A stretch of DNA of 64,000 nt, from NCBI RefSeq assembly GCF_039962115.1, contig NZ_JAMPKJ010000006.1, positions 62,001-126,000 of the forward strand, given 5' to 3'. The position numbers and the translations under genes are program-made. This DNA is from Funiculus sociatus GB2-C1. Lineage in GTDB: Bacteria; Cyanobacteriota; Cyanobacteriia; Cyanobacteriales; FACHB-T130. Positions 4,405 to 14,963 of this stretch are shown piece by piece (position 1 is the stretch's first letter; every line of letters begins with the position of its first letter). A model generated the notes under the pieces. That model worked only from the letters and a program-made list of their open reading frames with translations. It was not told where the DNA came from and did no database searches.

Positions 4405-5868
4405 ATGGCAGTTGAGTACGATTTAGTTGTAATAGGAGGTACACAGGCAGGGCGCTATGCGGCAATTGCTGCTGCCCATCTGCAAGCCCGCGTTGCCTTA
4501 ATTGAAAATACGCCGCCAGGGTTGTCCTTACATTCTGGTATCTACAACCAATCTTTAACTCAGGTTGGGCGAGTACTTCAGCAGACGAGTAACGCCGATC
4601 AATTTGGTGTTTATTGGGATCAGGCTGATGCAACTTCCCCACAGCAAATCCCGGAGATTCGATTTAGCGAGGCAATTAGTTGGGCATCGGGCGTTGTCTC
4701 CACCTTAGAAGAACAGAATTCGCCAGCAGTTTTGGCTTCTTTGGGCGTTGATGTAATTATTGGTGAGGGGGAATTTTGCCGCAAACCTTACCTCGGCTTT
4801 GTCGTCAACGGGCGGAGATTGCGATCGCGTGCCTACCTAATTGCCACAGGTTCAAATAAAGCAACAACCGAAATCGACGGACTACAATCTAGTGGCTATC
4901 TGACACCAGCAGATTGGCAGCAGAAATTCCCCGAAAAACTACCCAAAGAGTGGGTAGTGATTGGCGGCGGCGCAACTGGCACCGAAATGGCGCAGATTTT
5001 AGCGCGGTTGGGTGCAGATGTTACTTTGGTGGCGCGTAGTTCCCACATCTTAGCCAAAGAAGACCCAGAGGCGGCTAGGCTAATTCAAGCGCAACTGGAA
5101 GCCGAGGGTGTCCGCATCCTGACGCAAACAGACGTGACACAAGTAAAACAGATTGATGGCAGAAAGTGGGTTTTAGCTGGTAACAAAGCTATCGAAACTG
5201 ATGAAATTTTGCTGTGTACGCCATCATCGCAGCCCATCAAATCCTTAAATTTGGAAGGCGTTGGGGTGAAGATGAATCGGCATGGGATTCAGGTGAACGA
5301 GAAGCTACAAACCAGTAATCCCCGGATATACGCCTGTGGAGACGTTGCTGGTGGTCATCAGCTTCCTCACATCGCCCAGTACGAAGCCAGCATCGCCCTG
5401 AAAAATGCCTTATTTTTGCCCATCTTCAAAGCAAACTATCGCGGCATTCCCACAGCGGTTTTTTCTGACCCCATCTTGGCACGAGTTGGTTTAACAGAGG
5501 AGCAAGCCAGACGCATCTATGTTAAGGATGTCGTAGTGTTGCGGCAATATTTCAAATCTGCAAGTAAAGCCCAGATGTTGGGGGAAACCACCGGGTTTTG
5601 TAAACTTATTTTGCGTCGCAATGGGCAAATTCTCGGCAGCTGCATCGTCGGAACTCAAGCTGATGAATTGATTCACATCATTGCTTTGGCGATACAGCAG
5701 AAAATCAAGGTGAATGCTTTGTTGCAGTTGCCTCCCATTTCTTCCACCCTGTCAGAAATTATTTACCAAACCGCGCAAGAGTGGCATCAACAGCGACTCA
5801 GCAAGAATACTGGATTGCAAGATTTCCTCGAAGGCTTTTTTAATTTCCGGCGATCGCGTTCTTTTTAA
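4405..5868 (+). CDS. FAD-dependent pyridine nucleotide oxidoreductase lacking the redox disulfide
   Basis: A 487-residue protein with the fold of class I disulfide reductases (dihydrolipoamide dehydrogenase, mercuric reductase). FAD-binding motif VVIGGTQAGRYAA at the N-terminus, the second Rossmann motif VVIGGGATGTEMA near residue 190, the FAD motif RIYACGDVAGGHQLPHIA, and a C-terminal dimerisation domain are all visible. The place of the usual CxxxxC pair reads LSLHSGIYNQSLTQ, without cysteine, and the C-terminal HxHPTxSE motif is reduced to PPISSTLSE without histidine. It cannot perform standard dithiol chemistry; an FAD/NAD(P)H reductase of another substrate is the inference. Substrate unknown. 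Confidence 0.8.
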   Translation: MAVEYDLVVIGGTQAGRYAAIAAAHLQARVALIENTPPGLSLHSGIYNQSLTQVGRVLQQTSNADQFGVYWDQADATSPQQIPEIRFSEAISWASGVVSTLEEQNSPAVLASLGVDVIIGEGEFCRKPYLGFVVNGRRLRSRAYLIATGSNKATTEIDGLQSSGYLTPADWQQKFPEKLPKEWVVIGGGATGTEMAQILARLGADVTLVARSSHILAKEDPEAARLIQAQLEAEGVRILTQTDVTQVKQIDGRKWVLAGNKAIETDEILLCTPSSQPIKSLNLEGVGVKMNRHGIQVNEKLQTSNPRIYACGDVAGGHQLPHIAQYEASIALKNALFLPIFKANYRGIPTAVFSDPILARVGLTEEQARRIYVKDVVVLRQYFKSASKAQMLGETTGFCKLILRRNGQILGSCIVGTQADELIHIIALAIQQKIKVNALLQLPPISSTLSEIIYQTAQEWHQQRLSKNTGLQDFLEGFFNFRRSRSF

Positions 5869-9490: not shown

Positions 9491-9937
9491 TTAATTTTCT
9501 GCTAACAAGCTGTATTTTTCGTCAAATACCTCTTCCCAAGAAAGTGAGGTTAATTGACATTTCATTCCCATTTCCTCCTCAGCGTTTTTGACTGCTCTAC
9601 TAAAGGATTTATCCCAGATAGACTCAATAAAATTTCGATTCAAGCTAGGAACTTCCTCTTGAATATCTTCAATCTCTAGACGAGCCGAACGAATACTAAT
9701 GCTCCAACTAGCACTACGTAGCCCTGGTTGACACTTCCACTTAATTACGTGGCTCATCAGCCGAATTAGCTGACTTTTCAGCGCCAATCTTTTTGATTTT
9801 CCCATTGATTCAATTAAAAAAGCTAAACCCTCGCTTGCTTCCATCCATTTTTCCTCTCTCAAAAGTTCTTGGACTGCGATCGCAGTTTGATACTCAGAAC
9901 TTGCAGCAAGCCATTCCCAATCCTGTTTAGTTTGCAT
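9491..9937 (-). CDS. DUF29 family protein
   Basis: 148 residues with the DUF29 pattern: aromatic-rich N-terminus (DWEWLAA), ESMGKSKRLALKSQLIRLMSHVIKWK (split here into ESMGKSKRLALKSQ and LIRLMSHVIKW) and the Arg/Ser-rich QPGLRSASWSISIRSAR. DUF29 genes are abundant and often multi-copy in cyanobacteria; their function is unknown. It converges on rph with a single base between the stops. Confidence 0.8.
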   Translation of the reverse strand: MQTKQDWEWLAASSEYQTAIAVQELLREEKWMEASEGLAFLIESMGKSKRLALKSQLIRLMSHVIKWKCQPGLRSASWSISIRSARLEIEDIQEEVPSLNRNFIESIWDKSFSRAVKNAEEEMGMKCQLTSLSWEEVFDEKYSLLAEN

Positions 9938-10310
9938 TACGACCTCGTATCAGTTATCACGCTCTTAAGCTAATGAGCTGTTGACTTTTTAATATATTTA
10001 TGATTTTAAAATTGCTTCCACTACCGATTATATAGATATAAGCCTATAGTTACTATGGAAATACTAGGTGGTAATTGAAACGGAATGTGGAAAAAAATTA
10101 AGATTAATTGCGATGACAGGGAAGCGCGATCGCACTCAACAAAGCCTGTATCCCGCATTACAACCTCTTTTCCATGTTGACGAGGTTAACAATTTCTCTA
10201 AAGCACAGCCGCATTGATGTTTGAGAGAATCTGAGACAATAAGCCTTTGCAATCAACTATTTCAGCCGCCTCCAGACACAAAATTAGGAATCACCATAAG
10301 GGAGAACTCT
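9938..10310. other. Intergenic region between DUF29 and chlB
   Basis: About 370 bases without a gene. It should contain the divergent promoters of both neighbours. It is AT-rich on the left and has a HIP1 site at ~10127; I see no riboswitch fold or clear regulator site. The chlB ribosome site AAGGGAGAA (10298-10306) closes it. Confidence 0.5.
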
Positions 10311-11837
10311 ATGAAATTGGCTTACTGGATGTATGCAGGCCCCGCGCACATTGGCACTCTGCGGGTCTCCAGTTCCTTTAAGAACGTCCATGCGATCATG
10401 CACGCGCCGATTGGGGATGACTACTTCAACGTCATGCGCTCGATGCTAGAGCGCGATCGCAACTTCACCCCAGTTACCATCAGTTCCGTTGACCGGAACG
10501 TTTTGGCGCGTGGCTCCCAGGAAAAGGTGGTGGACAACATCACCCGCAAAGACGTTGAGGAACACCCAGACCTGATTGTTTTAACTCCCACCTGCACCAG
10601 CAGCATTCTCCAAGAAGACCTGGAAAACTTTGTAGAACGAGCTTCCATAGAAACCAAGTCAGACGTGATGCTGGCGGACGTGAACCACTACCGCGTCAAT
10701 GAACTGCAAGCAGCCGACATCACCCTGCGGCAAATCGTCCAGCTTTACATCGAGAAAGCCCGGAAAAAAGGCGATTTACCAGAAGGGAAAACTGAAAAGC
10801 CCTCAGTCAACATTCTCGGAATTTCCAGCCTCGGATTCCACAATCACCACGACTGCACCGAGTTAAAGCGGTTGATGGTTGATTTGGGAATTCAGGTAAA
10901 CGAGGTAATTCCCGAAGGCGCATCGGTTCACAACCTCAAGAATTTGCCGAAAGCCTGGTTTAACCTGGTTCCTTACCGCGAAATCGGGCCAATGGCGGCT
11001 CGTTACCTAGAGCAAGAATTTGGGATGCCTTATGTAGATATTACGCCGATGGGTGTGGTAGAAACAGCGCGTTGCATCCGCAAAATTCAGGAAATAATTA
11101 ACGCTCAAGGCGCAGATGTTGACTACACAGACTACATCAACGAGCAAACTTTGCACGTTTCGCAAGCTGCTTGGTTCTCCCGTTCAATTGACTGCCAAAA
11201 CTTGACAGGTAAGAAAGCTGTGGTGTTTGGCGACAGCACCCACGCCGCCGCTATCACCAAAATTCTGTCAAGAGAAATGGGAATTCACGTTGTTTGGGCG
11301 GGTACTTATTGTAAGTACGATGCTGAGTGGTTCAAAGAGCAGGTGGGCGAATACTGCGATGAAGTAATTGTCACCGAAGATCATGGTCAAATTGGGGATG
11401 CGATCGCTCGTGTGGAACCTTCTGCCATCTTCGGTACCCAAATGGAACGTCACGTCGGTAAGCGTCTAAATATTCCCTGCGGCGTCATTGCAGCACCGAT
11501 TCACGTGCAGAATTTCCCCATCGGTTACAAGCCATTCTGCGGTTACGAAGGCACCAATCAAATTACAGATTTGATCTACAATTCCTTCACTTTGGGAATG
11601 GAAGATCACCTCTTGGAAATCTTCGGCGGACACGACACCAAGGAAGTGATTACCAAGGGGATTTCTGCTGGTTCTGACCTCGGCTGGAATAAAGAAGCAC
11701 AAGCAGAACTCAACAAAGTTCCTGGTTTCGTGCGCGGCAAAGTGAAGCGCAACACCGAGAAATTTGCACGCGATCGCGGCTTCAACGTCATCACCCTAGA
11801 AGTGATGTATGCAGCTAAAGAAGCAGTCGGCGCGTAA
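10311..11837 (+). CDS. chlB: Light-independent protochlorophyllide reductase subunit B
   Basis: ChlB pairs with ChlN to form the catalytic component of dark-operative protochlorophyllide reductase, which receives electrons from Chl[21 protein letters not shown] is the family start, so the ATG at 10311 with GGGAGAA ahead of it is used, giving 508 residues. Conserved cysteine contexts such as [13 protein letters not shown] and [16 protein letters not shown], and the C-terminal part of the family ending [19 protein letters not shown], are present. chlL and chlN are not adjacent. Its last 70 bases reappear in decayed form at 12823-12892. Confidence 0.96.
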
Positions 11838-11861
11838 TTCGGCAGTCAGCCATTAACATTT

Positions 11862-11888
11862 AGCAGTCAGCCCTAAAAGCTGGCTGCT
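11862..11888 (+). terminator. Rho-independent terminator of chlB
   Basis: Stem AGCAGTCAGC / GCTGGCTGCT (one G-U) with loop CCTAAAA, followed by ATTTTATAAT, 24 bases after the chlB stop. Confidence 0.75.
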
Positions 11889-11896
11889 ATTTTATA

Positions 11897-11938
11897 ATAA
11901 ATTTAATATTAAATTTATGTCTTTTTTATTAATAAAAA
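11897..11938. promoter_or_regulatory. Two AT-rich perfect palindromes upstream of the Uma2 gene
   Basis: A 22-bp perfect palindrome (11897-11918, centre TTAATATTAA) is followed by a 16-bp perfect palindrome (11923-11938, TTTTTATTAATAAAAA). Both lie within 52 bases of the Uma2 start. They could be operators, part of an AT-rich promoter, or chance in a low-complexity stretch. Confidence 0.4.
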
Positions 11939-11948
11939 GGTAAGATAT

Positions 11949-12803
11949 ATGACTCAAACTCAAGTAGCAATTTCTAAAACATCCTACACTATCAAATGGG
12001 AAAAATTACCCGATGACTTTCAATTACCTGACGAGCCAGTGGAAAACATTTATCACCCTTTATTAGCATCGGCGCTGCGAGAAATTCTAGAAATTGCTGG
12101 CTTTATCACTGCATCCATGCTGATAGCTTCAAACTTTGGTATTTGTGCCAATGTGAACGAGAAAATAGTTGTAAAAGCACCAGACTGGGTTTACATTCCG
12201 AATGTGCCAGCCGTCGCACCTGGAGCCATTCGCCGCAGTTATACGCCTCATGCAGAGGGTGATATCCCAGCAGTTGTTATGGAGTTTCTATCAGATACCG
12301 AACAGGGTGAATATTCCGCTAAATCTACTTATCCCTATGGAAAATGGTACTTTTACGAGCGCATTTTACAAGTACCAATTTATGTAATTTTTGACCCTAA
12401 TCATGGGACATTAGAAGTCCATGACTTAGTAGAGGGACACTATCAACTGCGACAACCCGATGCGAATGGACGTTACTTGATCGCATCAATAGGTTTATTT
12501 CTGGGAGTTTGGCAGGGAACAAAGGCAGAAGTAACTGCTAATTGGTTACGGTGGTGGGATGATGGAAATATGCTACCTTGGGGAGTCGAGCGAGTAGAAC
12601 AGAGTTTACAGGAAGGAATTCAACAAGGAAAGTTGACAATTGTTAATCGTTTGCTGGCTCGAAGAATCGGCGCGATCGCTCCCGATTTACGATCAACAAT
12701 AAACAGCTTATCTGCAACTGCTCTCGATGAATTAAGCGAAGCGTTATTAGACTTTTCGGATGAAACAGAACTAGCCACTTGGCTAGCACAGCATCAAGCA
12801 TAA
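11949..12803 (+). CDS. Uma2 family (DUF820) putative endonuclease with DUF4351-like tail
   Basis: 284 residues. The N-terminal ~200 residues resemble Uma2, a PD-(D/E)XK-type nuclease fold very expanded in cyanobacteria: DWVYIPNVPAV, PAVVMEFLSDTEQ and the QVPIYVIFDP strand line up with the usual D...E...K core, though the spacing is divergent. The C-terminal ~60 residues (LLARRIGAIAPDLRSTI ... LSEALLDFSDETELATWL) look like DUF4351. Function of these proteins is not settled. The gene sits between chlB and a decayed duplicate of the chlB 3' end, suggesting it arrived as a cassette. Confidence 0.8.
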   Translation: MTQTQVAISKTSYTIKWEKLPDDFQLPDEPVENIYHPLLASALREILEIAGFITASMLIASNFGICANVNEKIVVKAPDWVYIPNVPAVAPGAIRRSYTPHAEGDIPAVVMEFLSDTEQGEYSAKSTYPYGKWYFYERILQVPIYVIFDPNHGTLEVHDLVEGHYQLRQPDANGRYLIASIGLFLGVWQGTKAEVTANWLRWWDDGNMLPWGVERVEQSLQEGIQQGKLTIVNRLLARRIGAIAPDLRSTINSLSATALDELSEALLDFSDETELATWLAQHQA

Positions 12804-12822
12804 ACGTTTTGGAGTTTGAACT

Positions 12823-12892
12823 GCGATTGCGGCTTTACCGAAATCATCTTAGAATTGATGTAAGCTACCAAAGAAGCTGTCGTCACTTAATT
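12823..12892 (+). pseudogene. Decayed duplicate of the chlB 3' end
   Basis: By eye this 70-base stretch aligns without gaps to chlB 11770-11839 with 54 identical positions. In the same frame it reads CGFTEIILELM-stop-ATKEAVVT-stop, against chl[21 protein letters not shown]-stop. The final TAATT is shared, and weaker similarity continues into the downstream GCAGTNAGC sequence. It has no start and an internal stop, so it is a relic. Confidence 0.8.
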
Positions 12893-12999
12893 AGCAGTTA
12901 GCGATTAGCTGATAATCATAAGGAATGAGGATTACTCTTCGTTCTTTACTTTTCTGAACAGCTTCCTGTTAGTATAATAATTTATTAAGGGTAATACTG

Positions 13000-13257
13000 A
13001 TGTCTGATAAATCACTATCAACTTCTTCAATAAATTTACAAAAAAAATTTATTAGAGTTGGCAATCGTATCATTAATCCAGATATGATTGCTACTGCTGA
13101 CTTGTCGGGGGAAAGTGTCATTATCATCTTAAAAACACATACTGAAGAACGTCTTGAGTTTTCCGGAGGTGAAGCCAAGGCGCTACAAGAATATTTCAGT
13201 AACCCAAGTCGCGTGGATAGGTTGCCGCCACAAAGACCTCCTTTAGAAGCAATATAG
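13000..13257 (+). CDS. Small hypothetical protein, 85 residues
   Basis: I do not recognise a named family. The protein starts with a Ser-rich stretch, then KFIRVGNRIINPDMIATADLSGESVIIILKT-like alternating strands (here shortened to the core IRVGNRIINPDMI and ESVIIIL), then an acidic helix FSGGEAKALQEYF and a Pro-rich end. The pattern suggests a small beta-barrel or beta-sheet domain. A ribosome-site-like AAGGGT lies eight bases upstream of the ATG, and codon use looks normal, so it is probably real. Confidence 0.6.
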   Translation: MSDKSLSTSSINLQKKFIRVGNRIINPDMIATADLSGESVIIILKTHTEERLEFSGGEAKALQEYFSNPSRVDRLPPQRPPLEAI

Positions 13258-13314
13258 ACTTCAGCTTGCATATAAATTTTTGTGCAATCACACAGACTGG
13301 TGCAGTAGTTGATA

Positions 13315-14097
13315 CTACTCAATCTCTCTTATCGCGGTTAATGTTTTTTGGTAACTGTCTATATTCCCTTGCTCAAGGAAAAGGTTTGCAGCCTTATGCA
13401 AGTCATCTACCGCACCTCTAGAGTCTTCTAAAGCAGCACGAACCAACCCACGGTATGTATATGCTGGAGCAAAATTAGGAGATAGCCTTAATGTCTGTGT
13501 AAAATCTTCAATCGCCCCTCTAACGTCTTCTACTTGACAATAGGCAAGCCCCCTATTGTAGTAAGCATCAGCACTGTTTGGATTGAGTTGCAATACCTGA
13601 GTAAAATCTTCAATTGCTTTTTTGTAATCTTCTAGTAGCGCGTAGGCAAGCCCTCTATTTATATAGGCTTCTCCTAGATTAGAGTTATTAATAACGGCTT
13701 CAGTAAAGTCTTCTATTGCTGTTGTGTAGTTACCCGATTTTAAATAGGCAAGTCCTCGGTTACAGCGAGCTAGTAGATGATTTGGATTGAGACCTAATAC
13801 TCGGTTAAAGTCCTCAACTGCTGCTTTATAGTTTTTAAGCTCAAGGTAAGCAGAGCCTCTATTTAAATAAGCTGTAACTTCATTAGGATTAATCCGTATC
13901 ACTTGGTTAAAGTCCTCTACTGCTCCTCTATAGTCTCCTAATTCAGTACGAAGAGACCCTCTCTTAAAGTAGGCAAGGTGATTGTCAGGATTGAGACTAA
14001 TTGCCTGATTGAGAGTTTGAATCGCTCCCTTAGCATCTCCTCTCTCTAAACTGCTGTCTCCCCACCCAGTTAAAAACACACTGAATAAATTTTTCAC
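13315..14097 (-). CDS. Tetratricopeptide repeat protein
   Basis: 260 residues made almost entirely of about seven 34-residue TPR units, each with the A-Y/N-R-G-x-A-Y-x-x-L-x-x-Y-x-x-A-I-E-D-F pattern and NP at the unit ends. It should be a protein-protein interaction scaffold. No signal peptide or other domain is seen, and neighbours give no hint of a partner. Confidence 0.85.
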   Translation of the reverse strand: MKNLFSVFLTGWGDSSLERGDAKGAIQTLNQAISLNPDNHLAYFKRGSLRTELGDYRGAVEDFNQVIRINPNEVTAYLNRGSAYLELKNYKAAVEDFNRVLGLNPNHLLARCNRGLAYLKSGNYTTAIEDFTEAVINNSNLGEAYINRGLAYALLEDYKKAIEDFTQVLQLNPNSADAYYNRGLAYCQVEDVRGAIEDFTQTLRLSPNFAPAYTYRGLVRAALEDSRGAVDDLHKAANLFLEQGNIDSYQKTLTAIREIE

Positions 14098-14277
14098 TTG
14101 CTGCTTTCCTATTATTGCTGTCGATATTATTAAATTTTATTCTTAATTCTATACCTGCTCTTCCAAAGCAATATATTGTAATTGATCTCATCTCCTGCAA
14201 GACGTGATCGCTCCTCCAACCCATCCAGCCAGCTATTATGTACTGGAAAGGTATACAGCATGAGGGAATCACCCACC

Positions 14278-14565
14278 ATGTCCAACCAGACAACGTTCAC
14301 TAATGCTAGTACTAACCTAGCCGAACTGTGCGATCACGTAGTTGCAGATCGAGATGTGGTGATAATTACTCGACACGAAGGTGAAAGCGTCGCCTTGATT
14401 GCTGCTGACGAATTAGATAGTTTGCTAGAAACAGTCTATTTACTTCGTTCACCTAAAAATGCAGCACGTTTGCTAACTGCTTTAGAACGAGCCAAAGCTA
14501 GAACTTTAGAACCACAGAGTATTGACAGCCTACGTCAGGAGTTAGGGATTGACTCAGAAGGATGA
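14278..14565 (+). CDS. yefM: YefM/Phd family antitoxin
   Basis: 95 residues from the ATG at 14278, matching YefM from its first residues: TTFTNASTNLAELCDHVVADRDVVIITRHEGESVALIAADELDSL (conserved cores LAELCDHVV and VVIITRHEGE), then LLRSPKNAARLLTALERAKA. The frame is open further upstream but that part is not family-like. It should bind the toxin and repress its own promoter. The toxin frame overlaps its 3' end. Confidence 0.85.
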   Translation: MSNQTTFTNASTNLAELCDHVVADRDVVIITRHEGESVALIAADELDSLLETVYLLRSPKNAARLLTALERAKARTLEPQSIDSLRQELGIDSEG

Positions 14566-14845
14566 ACCGCAACCCCAAGAAACAAAGGCTCGTGATGCGG
14601 TTTTTCATCCAGAATTTCGGGACGACCTCGCCTATTGGGTAAAGACAAACCGCAAAACTGCGCTGCGGGCCTTTAAGCTGATTGAAGATATCATGCGAGA
14701 TCCTTTTACAGGAATTGGTAAGCCAGAACCGCTGAAATATATGGACTCAAACGCATGGTCGCGGCGACTGACTGAGGAACACCGAATAGTTTACCTAGCC
14801 AGCGATGACAGAATTGATTTTCTCTAAGCTCTATATCATTATTGA
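14549..14845 (+). pseudogene. yoeB: YoeB-type toxin cut by a premature TAA
   Basis: The frame starts at a TTG overlapping the antitoxin end and reads FHPEFRDDLAYWVKTNRK, DPFTGIGKPEPLKYM and WSRRLTEEHRIVYLASDDRIDFL, clearly a YoeB mRNA interferase. It then meets TAA at 14825-14827. The next five codons in the same frame encode ALYHY followed by TGA at 14843. Family members end in a -YHY tail that contains the catalytic histidine and tyrosine, so one C-to-T change (CAA to TAA) has probably removed the active site. The 92-residue product should be inactive but may still bind the antitoxin. Confidence 0.8.
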
Positions 14846-14963
14846 AAACGCGATCGCATTCTCTCCAGCAAGACGCGATCACTTTATCCCGAATGATAGT
14901 TTTGTGTATTGGCTTTGGATAAAGAGGAGGAGCGATCGCCTCTCTCCCTATCCTTACAATTAG

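Follow-up and report, generated by a model that had tools for sequence, protein, structure and literature searches.

How did a Uma2-family endonuclease gene come to lie between chlB and a decayed copy of that gene's own 3′ end? The arrangement stands in a stretch of 64,000 nucleotides, part of contig 6 of the Funiculus sociatus GB2-C1 genome (G000), which we call the window. An earlier note, made from these letters alone, had read it as the footprint of a Uma2 cassette that entered at the end of chlB and replaced its tail. We find that the chlB end is duplicated around the Uma2 gene, that the same order in Trichocoleus sp. FACHB-40 has an empty counterpart in a relative and that the anatomy recurs at the ends of other genes. 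The downstream copy (12823–12892) is probably what remains of the 3′ end of the chlB allele once resident here, displaced by an incoming block of chlB end, terminator and Uma2. From this anatomy we infer that the block came from a close relative by one-sided recombination, a recombination anchored in the gene being most likely.

A second chlB tail behind the Uma2 gene

The locus comprises the following features (window coordinates; ORF, open reading frame).

10311–11837, plus strand: chlB, light-independent protochlorophyllide reductase subunit B; intact ORF, Pfam Oxidored_nitro 260.6 bits and PCP_red 74.1 bits
11770–11837, plus strand: proximal chlB tail (the repeated part), beginning at GCGATCGC
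11861–11889, plus strand: terminator-like hairpin behind the proximal tail; RNA fold −21.9 kcal/mol, z −4.4 for the folded stretch
11897–11918, strand not applicable: perfect AT palindrome of 22 nt in front of the Uma2 gene
11923–11938, strand not applicable: second perfect AT palindrome, 16 nt, in front of the Uma2 gene
11949–12803, plus strand: Uma2 gene, 284 amino acids, with C-terminal DUF4351; Pfam PF05685 43.2 bits (cut-off 27) and PF14261 74.1 bits
12804–12822: right end of the block, 19 bases between the Uma2 stop and the second tail; near-identical in FACHB-40 (G064) and G003
12823–12892, plus strand: decaying, probably displaced chlB tail with one internal stop

Without gaps, 54 of 70 bases are identical between 11770–11839 and 12823–12892, as the earlier note had stated, far above the next best ungapped match to the chlB tail within the window (34/70) and above the best value reached when the 3 kb downstream was mononucleotide-shuffled 300 times (38/70). 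With blastn the match lengthens to 94 bases at 76.6%. Translation bears out that, apart from a single internal stop, the second copy reads on in the frame of chlB (DCGFTEIILELM*ATKEAVVT*). Both copies start with GCGAT(C/T)GC, and the proximal one begins at GCGATCGC, the cyanobacterial HIP1 octamer. The interval also holds what had been described: 11949–12803 is the only ORF filling it, with the two AT palindromes in front, and a scan of ORFs and Pfam domains found no integrase gene there, Uma2 being the sole gene. The distal tail begins at the 20th base after the Uma2 stop. Against 53 chlB loci its best ungapped match is 53/68 (L024), with 52/68 to its own chlB; a DNA search with the copy gave chlB ends as the stronger matches, other gene families otherwise not having been searched with it.

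An uninterrupted chlB allele in a relative

FACHB-40 (locus L061) has chlB, Uma2 and a second chlB tail in the order seen in the window, its Uma2 protein sharing 96% amino acid identity with that of the window and its second tail being free of internal stops. The two genomes are collinear at 9503–12881 (92%) and again from 14850 (95%), and differ at 12881–14850. The distal tail of FACHB-40 and the next 132 bases align to the contiguous chlB end and flank of G002 (209 bp, 80%), a genome that has no Uma2 behind chlB and in which chlB runs straight into its native flank; beyond a 1.57-kb insert in FACHB-40, the next 62 bases of G002 resume (82%). Behind the proximal tail of FACHB-40, the match to G002 ends 16 bases after the stop; the hairpins behind its first and second tails differ. 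In the window, hairpin 11861–11889 lies between the chlB stop and the AT palindromes; at this position the hairpin of FACHB-40 is stronger, and in G002 other sequence directly follows chlB. Because the distal tail of FACHB-40 is the one joined to the G002-type terminator and flank, it is the downstream copy that represents the old, displaced end, with the Uma2 block placed upstream. The comparison supports the earlier proposal that a Uma2 block, bringing a chlB tail with it, was inserted at the chlB 3′ end and that the displaced tail then decayed.

Two further relatives were compared. G003 has chlB, the same type of terminator and a mere remnant of uma2, its final 142 bp; an apparent start of a distal tail was seen there by eye and was not significant in a score test. 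Behind chlB of G004 neither a uma2 match nor a second tail was found. The 1.57-kb insert of FACHB-40 (L137 4714–6279) contains several small ORFs.

Other cargo at the end of chlB

We compared the sequence downstream of chlB at 53 loci from 43 genomes (ten genomes represented twice), mostly over 1.3–6.3 kb, with two segments shorter than 400 bp. For G242 and probably for G014, both with broken frames, the end of chlB was set wrongly; the true end in G242 comes from a later alignment. A clear second tail is present in three of the 43 genomes: G000 (score 59), FACHB-40 (64) and G185 (133), the last with different cargo. Other chlB loci score at most 26 and shuffles at most 32; L021 and L166 exceed their own shuffles by only 1 and 3 points and were not counted. 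The deep two-copy arrangement that the earlier note had set against its own idea was thus not found among these genomes. A second chlB match in G014 was rejected as a frameshift within the same chlB.

Three chlB tails follow one another in G185 (L138; G185:C57:118000-127000). A PIN-domain ORF and a DUF2281-like ORF (below cut-off) separate the first from the second, and a 90-amino-acid ORF and an HNH gene separate the second from the third, which is partial; the second is identical to the first at 75 of 78 bases. In the congener G247 chlB is directly joined to the sequence behind the second tail (425 bp, 81%), and in another congener, G242, to that behind the third (928 bp, 84%). These empty sites indicate that the chlB end of G185 was entered twice, by cargo other than Uma2. 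Stray chlB tails of about 32–42 codons also occur elsewhere in the genomes G059 and G037 (L139 3452–3577; L140 3959–4054), both beside the same histidine-kinase-like gene (named by eye).

The same anatomy at other genes

The earlier note had suggested a search for further Uma2 genes enclosed by duplicated 3′ ends of housekeeping genes. Screening 76 Uma2 loci, five of which proved too short, together with those of G000 revealed Uma2 genes so placed behind chlH, a DegT/DnrJ (rfbH-like) gene and a DUF29 gene. In G000, chlH is followed by a same-strand Uma2 gene and then by a copy of the chlH end (182 of 225 bases identical). G004 has the same arrangement, more decayed; G003 and FACHB-40 have the Uma2 gene and no tail copy; in G002 chlH is followed by two Uma2-like genes, the first of them recognized by eye, and in G001 the 1.5 kb behind chlH is free of Uma2. 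The displaced tail matches at 61 of 76 bases for the rfbH-like gene of Microcystis aeruginosa LEGE 91341 and at 58 of 68 for the DUF29 gene, which lies in a metagenome-assembled genome. Among five further genomes searched, the displaced Microcystis copy is closer to the gene ends of G390 (94/110) and G392 (86/109) than to its own proximal tail (73/109). G390 has no Uma2 directly behind the gene, whose last 34 bases vary among Microcystis strains; the two tails are, to judge from these alignments, different alleles. Displaced tails measure 68 bases at chlB, 225 at chlH, 69 at the DUF29 gene, about 110 at the rfbH-like gene, and 85 and about 53 at chlB of G185.

Genes other than Uma2 also occupy such positions. 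At L071 (4687–4757 and 7004–7075) and L121 (4691–4752 and 5477–5538) it is a Uma2 gene whose 3′ end occurs twice, with other genes in between; the cargo behind the duplicated Uma2 tail is a 710-amino-acid orphan without a Pfam match in L071, and a two-gene module whose second ORF is RelE-like (below cut-off) in L121. At L316 a 482-amino-acid gene has the same footprint.

Probable displacement by one-sided recombination

One homologous and one illegitimate end would fit this anatomy. An incoming block of chlB end, terminator and Uma2 would have recombined with the resident chlB, on the left by homology inside the gene, which would have kept its reading frame and gained a new tail, and on the right by a join within the tail of the resident gene, so that the old tail would be stranded about 20 bases past the Uma2 stop and would then decay.

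Several observations weigh against this reading. The native flank of FACHB-40 left no trace after 12892 in the window (its score of 24 was also reached by the best of 20 shuffles), and its native tail was not found when sought downstream in the window and in G004. The tail copy of the window shares 44 of 68 bases with that of FACHB-40, and the distal tails of G000, FACHB-40 and G003 look like three different alleles; with this and the replaced flank, a later recombination or exchange on the right side must be assumed. The empty-site comparison that the earlier note had called for therefore succeeded for FACHB-40 against G002 and failed for the window's own flank. The chlH locus shows no flank match to the empty site of G001. 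Neither proximal tail is measurably foreign: not that of chlB (last 70 bp: G029 0.86, G002 0.84), nor that of chlH, where support is 45–55 around the relevant node in tail trees too short for placing tails. Tails A, B and C of G185 share bases absent from its congeners (by eye), which fits copying within the genome.

What would have driven displacement? There is close to an even chance that the process was passive, with homology-facilitated illegitimate recombination at DNA uptake importing donor DNA behind a gene, and with Uma2 a common cargo as a common gene. The variety of cargo with the same footprint (the PIN and HNH modules at G185 chlB, L071, L121 and L316) and the varying lengths of displaced tails agree with it. 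A passage in PMC3240628 describes the process in three naturally competent species, and one in PMC5361080 invokes it for displaced immunity genes of the type VI secretion system (T6SS) and, as a hypothesis, for Rhs 3′ ends. Random right ends, however, would not be expected to fall so often a few bases behind one complete gene.

Uma2 as a possible driver

A nuclease-driven process is possible and, in our estimate, rather unlikely: Uma2 would cut the 3′ end of a Uma2-less allele, and repair from a Uma2-bearing allele would make it a tail-carrying homing element resembling the mORFs of fungi, whose genes have this anatomy (according to a passage in PMC3630166). Such an element would account for the right edge. 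By DNA alignment the old tail starts 19 bases after the Uma2 stop at chlB (L061), 32 at chlH (L173), 12 at the rfbH-like gene (L076) and 5 at the DUF29 gene (L116), a clustering with p of about 4e-4 under a simple uniform model. A homing-like selfish role for the family was proposed in 2005, in a passage of PMC551604.

It would also predict that Uma2 is over-represented as cargo. Uma2 was called with home-made profiles and genes by a simple longest-ORF rule, and a hit was a single-copy displaced tail at most 60 bases from the stop, with one-gene cargo; final sorting was by eye. The 1,741 neighbour pairs included 193 same-strand pairs with Uma2 second and 832 with another gene second. Displaced tails followed Uma2 in 4 of the 193 (L061, L173, L076 and L116) and other cargo in 2 of the 832 (L071 and L316). 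The one-sided Fisher p is 0.013; it rises to 0.049 without chlB, and to 0.084 if the weak match L094 (37/45) is in addition taken as a control match. The enrichment is weak to marginal, and non-Uma2 cargo is undercounted, as L121, with two genes between its Uma2 tails, falls outside the one-gene rule. Two unrelated genomes picked regardless of any finding, G263 and G239 (100 regions around Uma2, 132 Uma2 ORFs), gave no displaced tail among 80 same-strand Uma2 pairs and a single tandem of tail plus Uma2: on the reverse strand of L263 (G263), 5023–5773, the last 45 bases of an AAA-domain gene and a Uma2 gene are repeated together, with 44 of 45 bases identical.

Loyalty of a Uma2 lineage to one site would also suit homing. 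A search of 388 genomes for relatives of the chlH-side Uma2 gave 30 closest homologues with an assigned locus; 12 of these, from six families, follow chlH on its strand at a distance of at most 1.5 kb, some with other ORFs in between. The chlH-side Uma2 of G000 is nearer to that of G120, from another family (82%), than to that of G002, from the same family (75%). A FastTree phylogeny with G002 added makes the chlH location old and paraphyletic (13 of 31 tips, four label changes) and places G002 with G006. Repeated transfer from one chlH locus to another would fit this pattern, and so would old synteny with loss of paralogues. At the eight chlH-side loci outside the window's family, no second stretch of chlH was found in the DNA compared. 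Uma2 adjoins chlH at L389, L396 and L400 and lies within 1.5 kb of it at L388, L391, L392, L397 and L399; in L391, XisH/XisI-like ORFs (by eye) stand between chlH and Uma2.

Varied cargo thus favours passive one-sided recombination, and the tight right edge together with the nuclease family favours mORF-like homing. The broader proposal, that the Uma2 genes, which are among the most multiplied in cyanobacteria, encode tail-carrying homing endonucleases, each lineage cutting a conserved gene (chlB or chlH, for instance) at its 3′ end, repairing it with a gene end of its own and stranding the old end directly behind its own stop, is one that the sequences could accommodate and that we regard as doubtful. 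Of the earlier idea that Uma2 genes move in this manner, the recurrence behind duplicated ends of other genes stands; given the identical footprint of other cargo, and proximal tails of chlB and chlH that are not measurably foreign, Uma2 itself is only a candidate mover of the DNA.

Local duplication, in which the chlB end was copied in place (for example by template switching in repair) and Uma2 came to lie between the copies, is improbable overall. The near-identity of tails A and B of G185, with bases that its congeners lack, points that way, and because the proximal tails of chlB and chlH look native, it would still serve at those loci. It does not explain why the FACHB-40 copies have different terminators with only the distal one joined to the G002 flank, or why the Microcystis copies belong to different alleles. 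Duplicated gene tails that restore 3′ ends are typical of integrase islands, and both chlB copies start with the same motif; yet site-specific integration, with an integrase targeting the end of the gene, to which the earlier note had likened the event, is very improbable, as the block has no integrase gene, the junction position varies by locus and displaced tails vary in length, at chlB itself between G000 and G185.

Relation to known systems

The proposed displacement of the resident chlB tail resembles the mORFs of fungal mitochondria (atp6, atp9, cox2 and nad3 hybrids in Glomus; atp6 in Allomyces), for which a passage in PMC3630166 describes a gene body, an inserted C-terminus, an endonuclease ORF and the native C-terminus close behind. 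The locus matches in having an endonuclease-family ORF behind an in-frame tail and a second tail directly behind that ORF. It differs in being a bacterial chromosome with Uma2, a PD-(D/E)XK-like family, instead of LAGLIDADG or GIY-YIG; a tail of a different allele appears only at the rfbH-like gene, and cleavage by Uma2 is putative. C-terminal displacement in Rhs proteins and displaced T6SS immunity genes are alike in having a constant 5′ part, a replaced 3′ part and old 3′ modules stranded downstream (a passage in PMC5361080); in contrast to those toxin and immunity modules, the targets here include housekeeping genes, and the stranded tail decays. With integrase islands at gene 3′ ends the locus shares a gene end restored by the incoming copy, and differs in having no integrase and no fixed core.

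For Uma2/COG4636 itself, the consulted part of Feder and Bujnicki (PMC551604) treats an abundant family as a selfish nuclease, proposes homing-like, recombination-driven spread without an observed mode of movement, and judges insertion virtually random from annotated neighbours; a passage in PMC2701414 regards the family as a likely solo toxin. The passages seen of PMC2701414, PMC1274311, PMC551604 and PMC9403480 do not mention duplicated gene ends. A displaced tail behind Uma2 is a physical footprint, with chlB, chlH, the rfbH-like gene and the DUF29 gene as candidate targets, and uninterrupted alleles are now at hand for cutting tests, making homing-like spread of the abundant cyanobacterial Uma2 genes testable. 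Incoming DNA can, moreover, replace the ends of cyanobacterial housekeeping genes while the gene stays intact.

The Uma2 protein and the screened candidates

As candidates for the D, E and displaced K of the PD-(D/E)XK-like site, stretches of the types PDW, MEFLS and YGKW were seen by eye in the window's Uma2 and six subfamily relatives; alignment with four typical members is poor. The window's protein gave no PADLOC match and no match among PDB sequences; the chlH-side Uma2 gave PADLOC PDC-S03 matches (E about 7e-7) and matches PDB 1wdj (TT1808) with E 2.7e-37. A tblastn search for Uma2 in phage records gave no match at 1e-5.

Several screen candidates were set aside. After a copy count, L266 (51 occurrences), L267 (10), L289 (81 and 22) and L348 (40 and 23) were dropped as repeats; L304 was dropped as a single opposite-strand, post-stop occurrence. 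Dropped as repeats from the listing alone, without a copy count, were L314, L322, L328, L283, L270, L327, L310, L301, L312, L349, L281, L318, L337, L273, L127 and L069, and likewise L092, L109, L114, L098, L090, L167, L079, L083, L115, L131, L134, L225, L217, L102 and L093. The repeat of L392 was judged dispersed by inspection. L091, L133, L329 and L191 are tandem Uma2 copies and not displaced tails. L212, where the end of a TPR gene and a post-stop stretch surround Uma2, was left out of the count, since this sequence lies beside the neighbouring ORF as well; counting it would bring Uma2 to 5. At L314, 6785–9316 contains short repeated stretches (translated AGKYLKPYQGLK/RKIPKTLSGIET) that look like a CRISPR array.

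The flank of the window

Behind the second tail, the window contains the following features.

12893–14849: flank unlike FACHB-40, on the basis of the break in collinearity with L137 at 12881–14850
13000–13257: 85-amino-acid ORF in the differing flank
13315–14097, minus strand: TPR gene in the differing flank
14182–14565: Phd/YefM antitoxin ORF (Pfam)
14549–14827: YoeB toxin ORF (Pfam)

The replaced flank thus includes a Phd/YefM–YoeB toxin–antitoxin pair (14182–14827). G004 matches the antitoxin stretch only, sharing 124 bp (91%) of the Phd region of the window.

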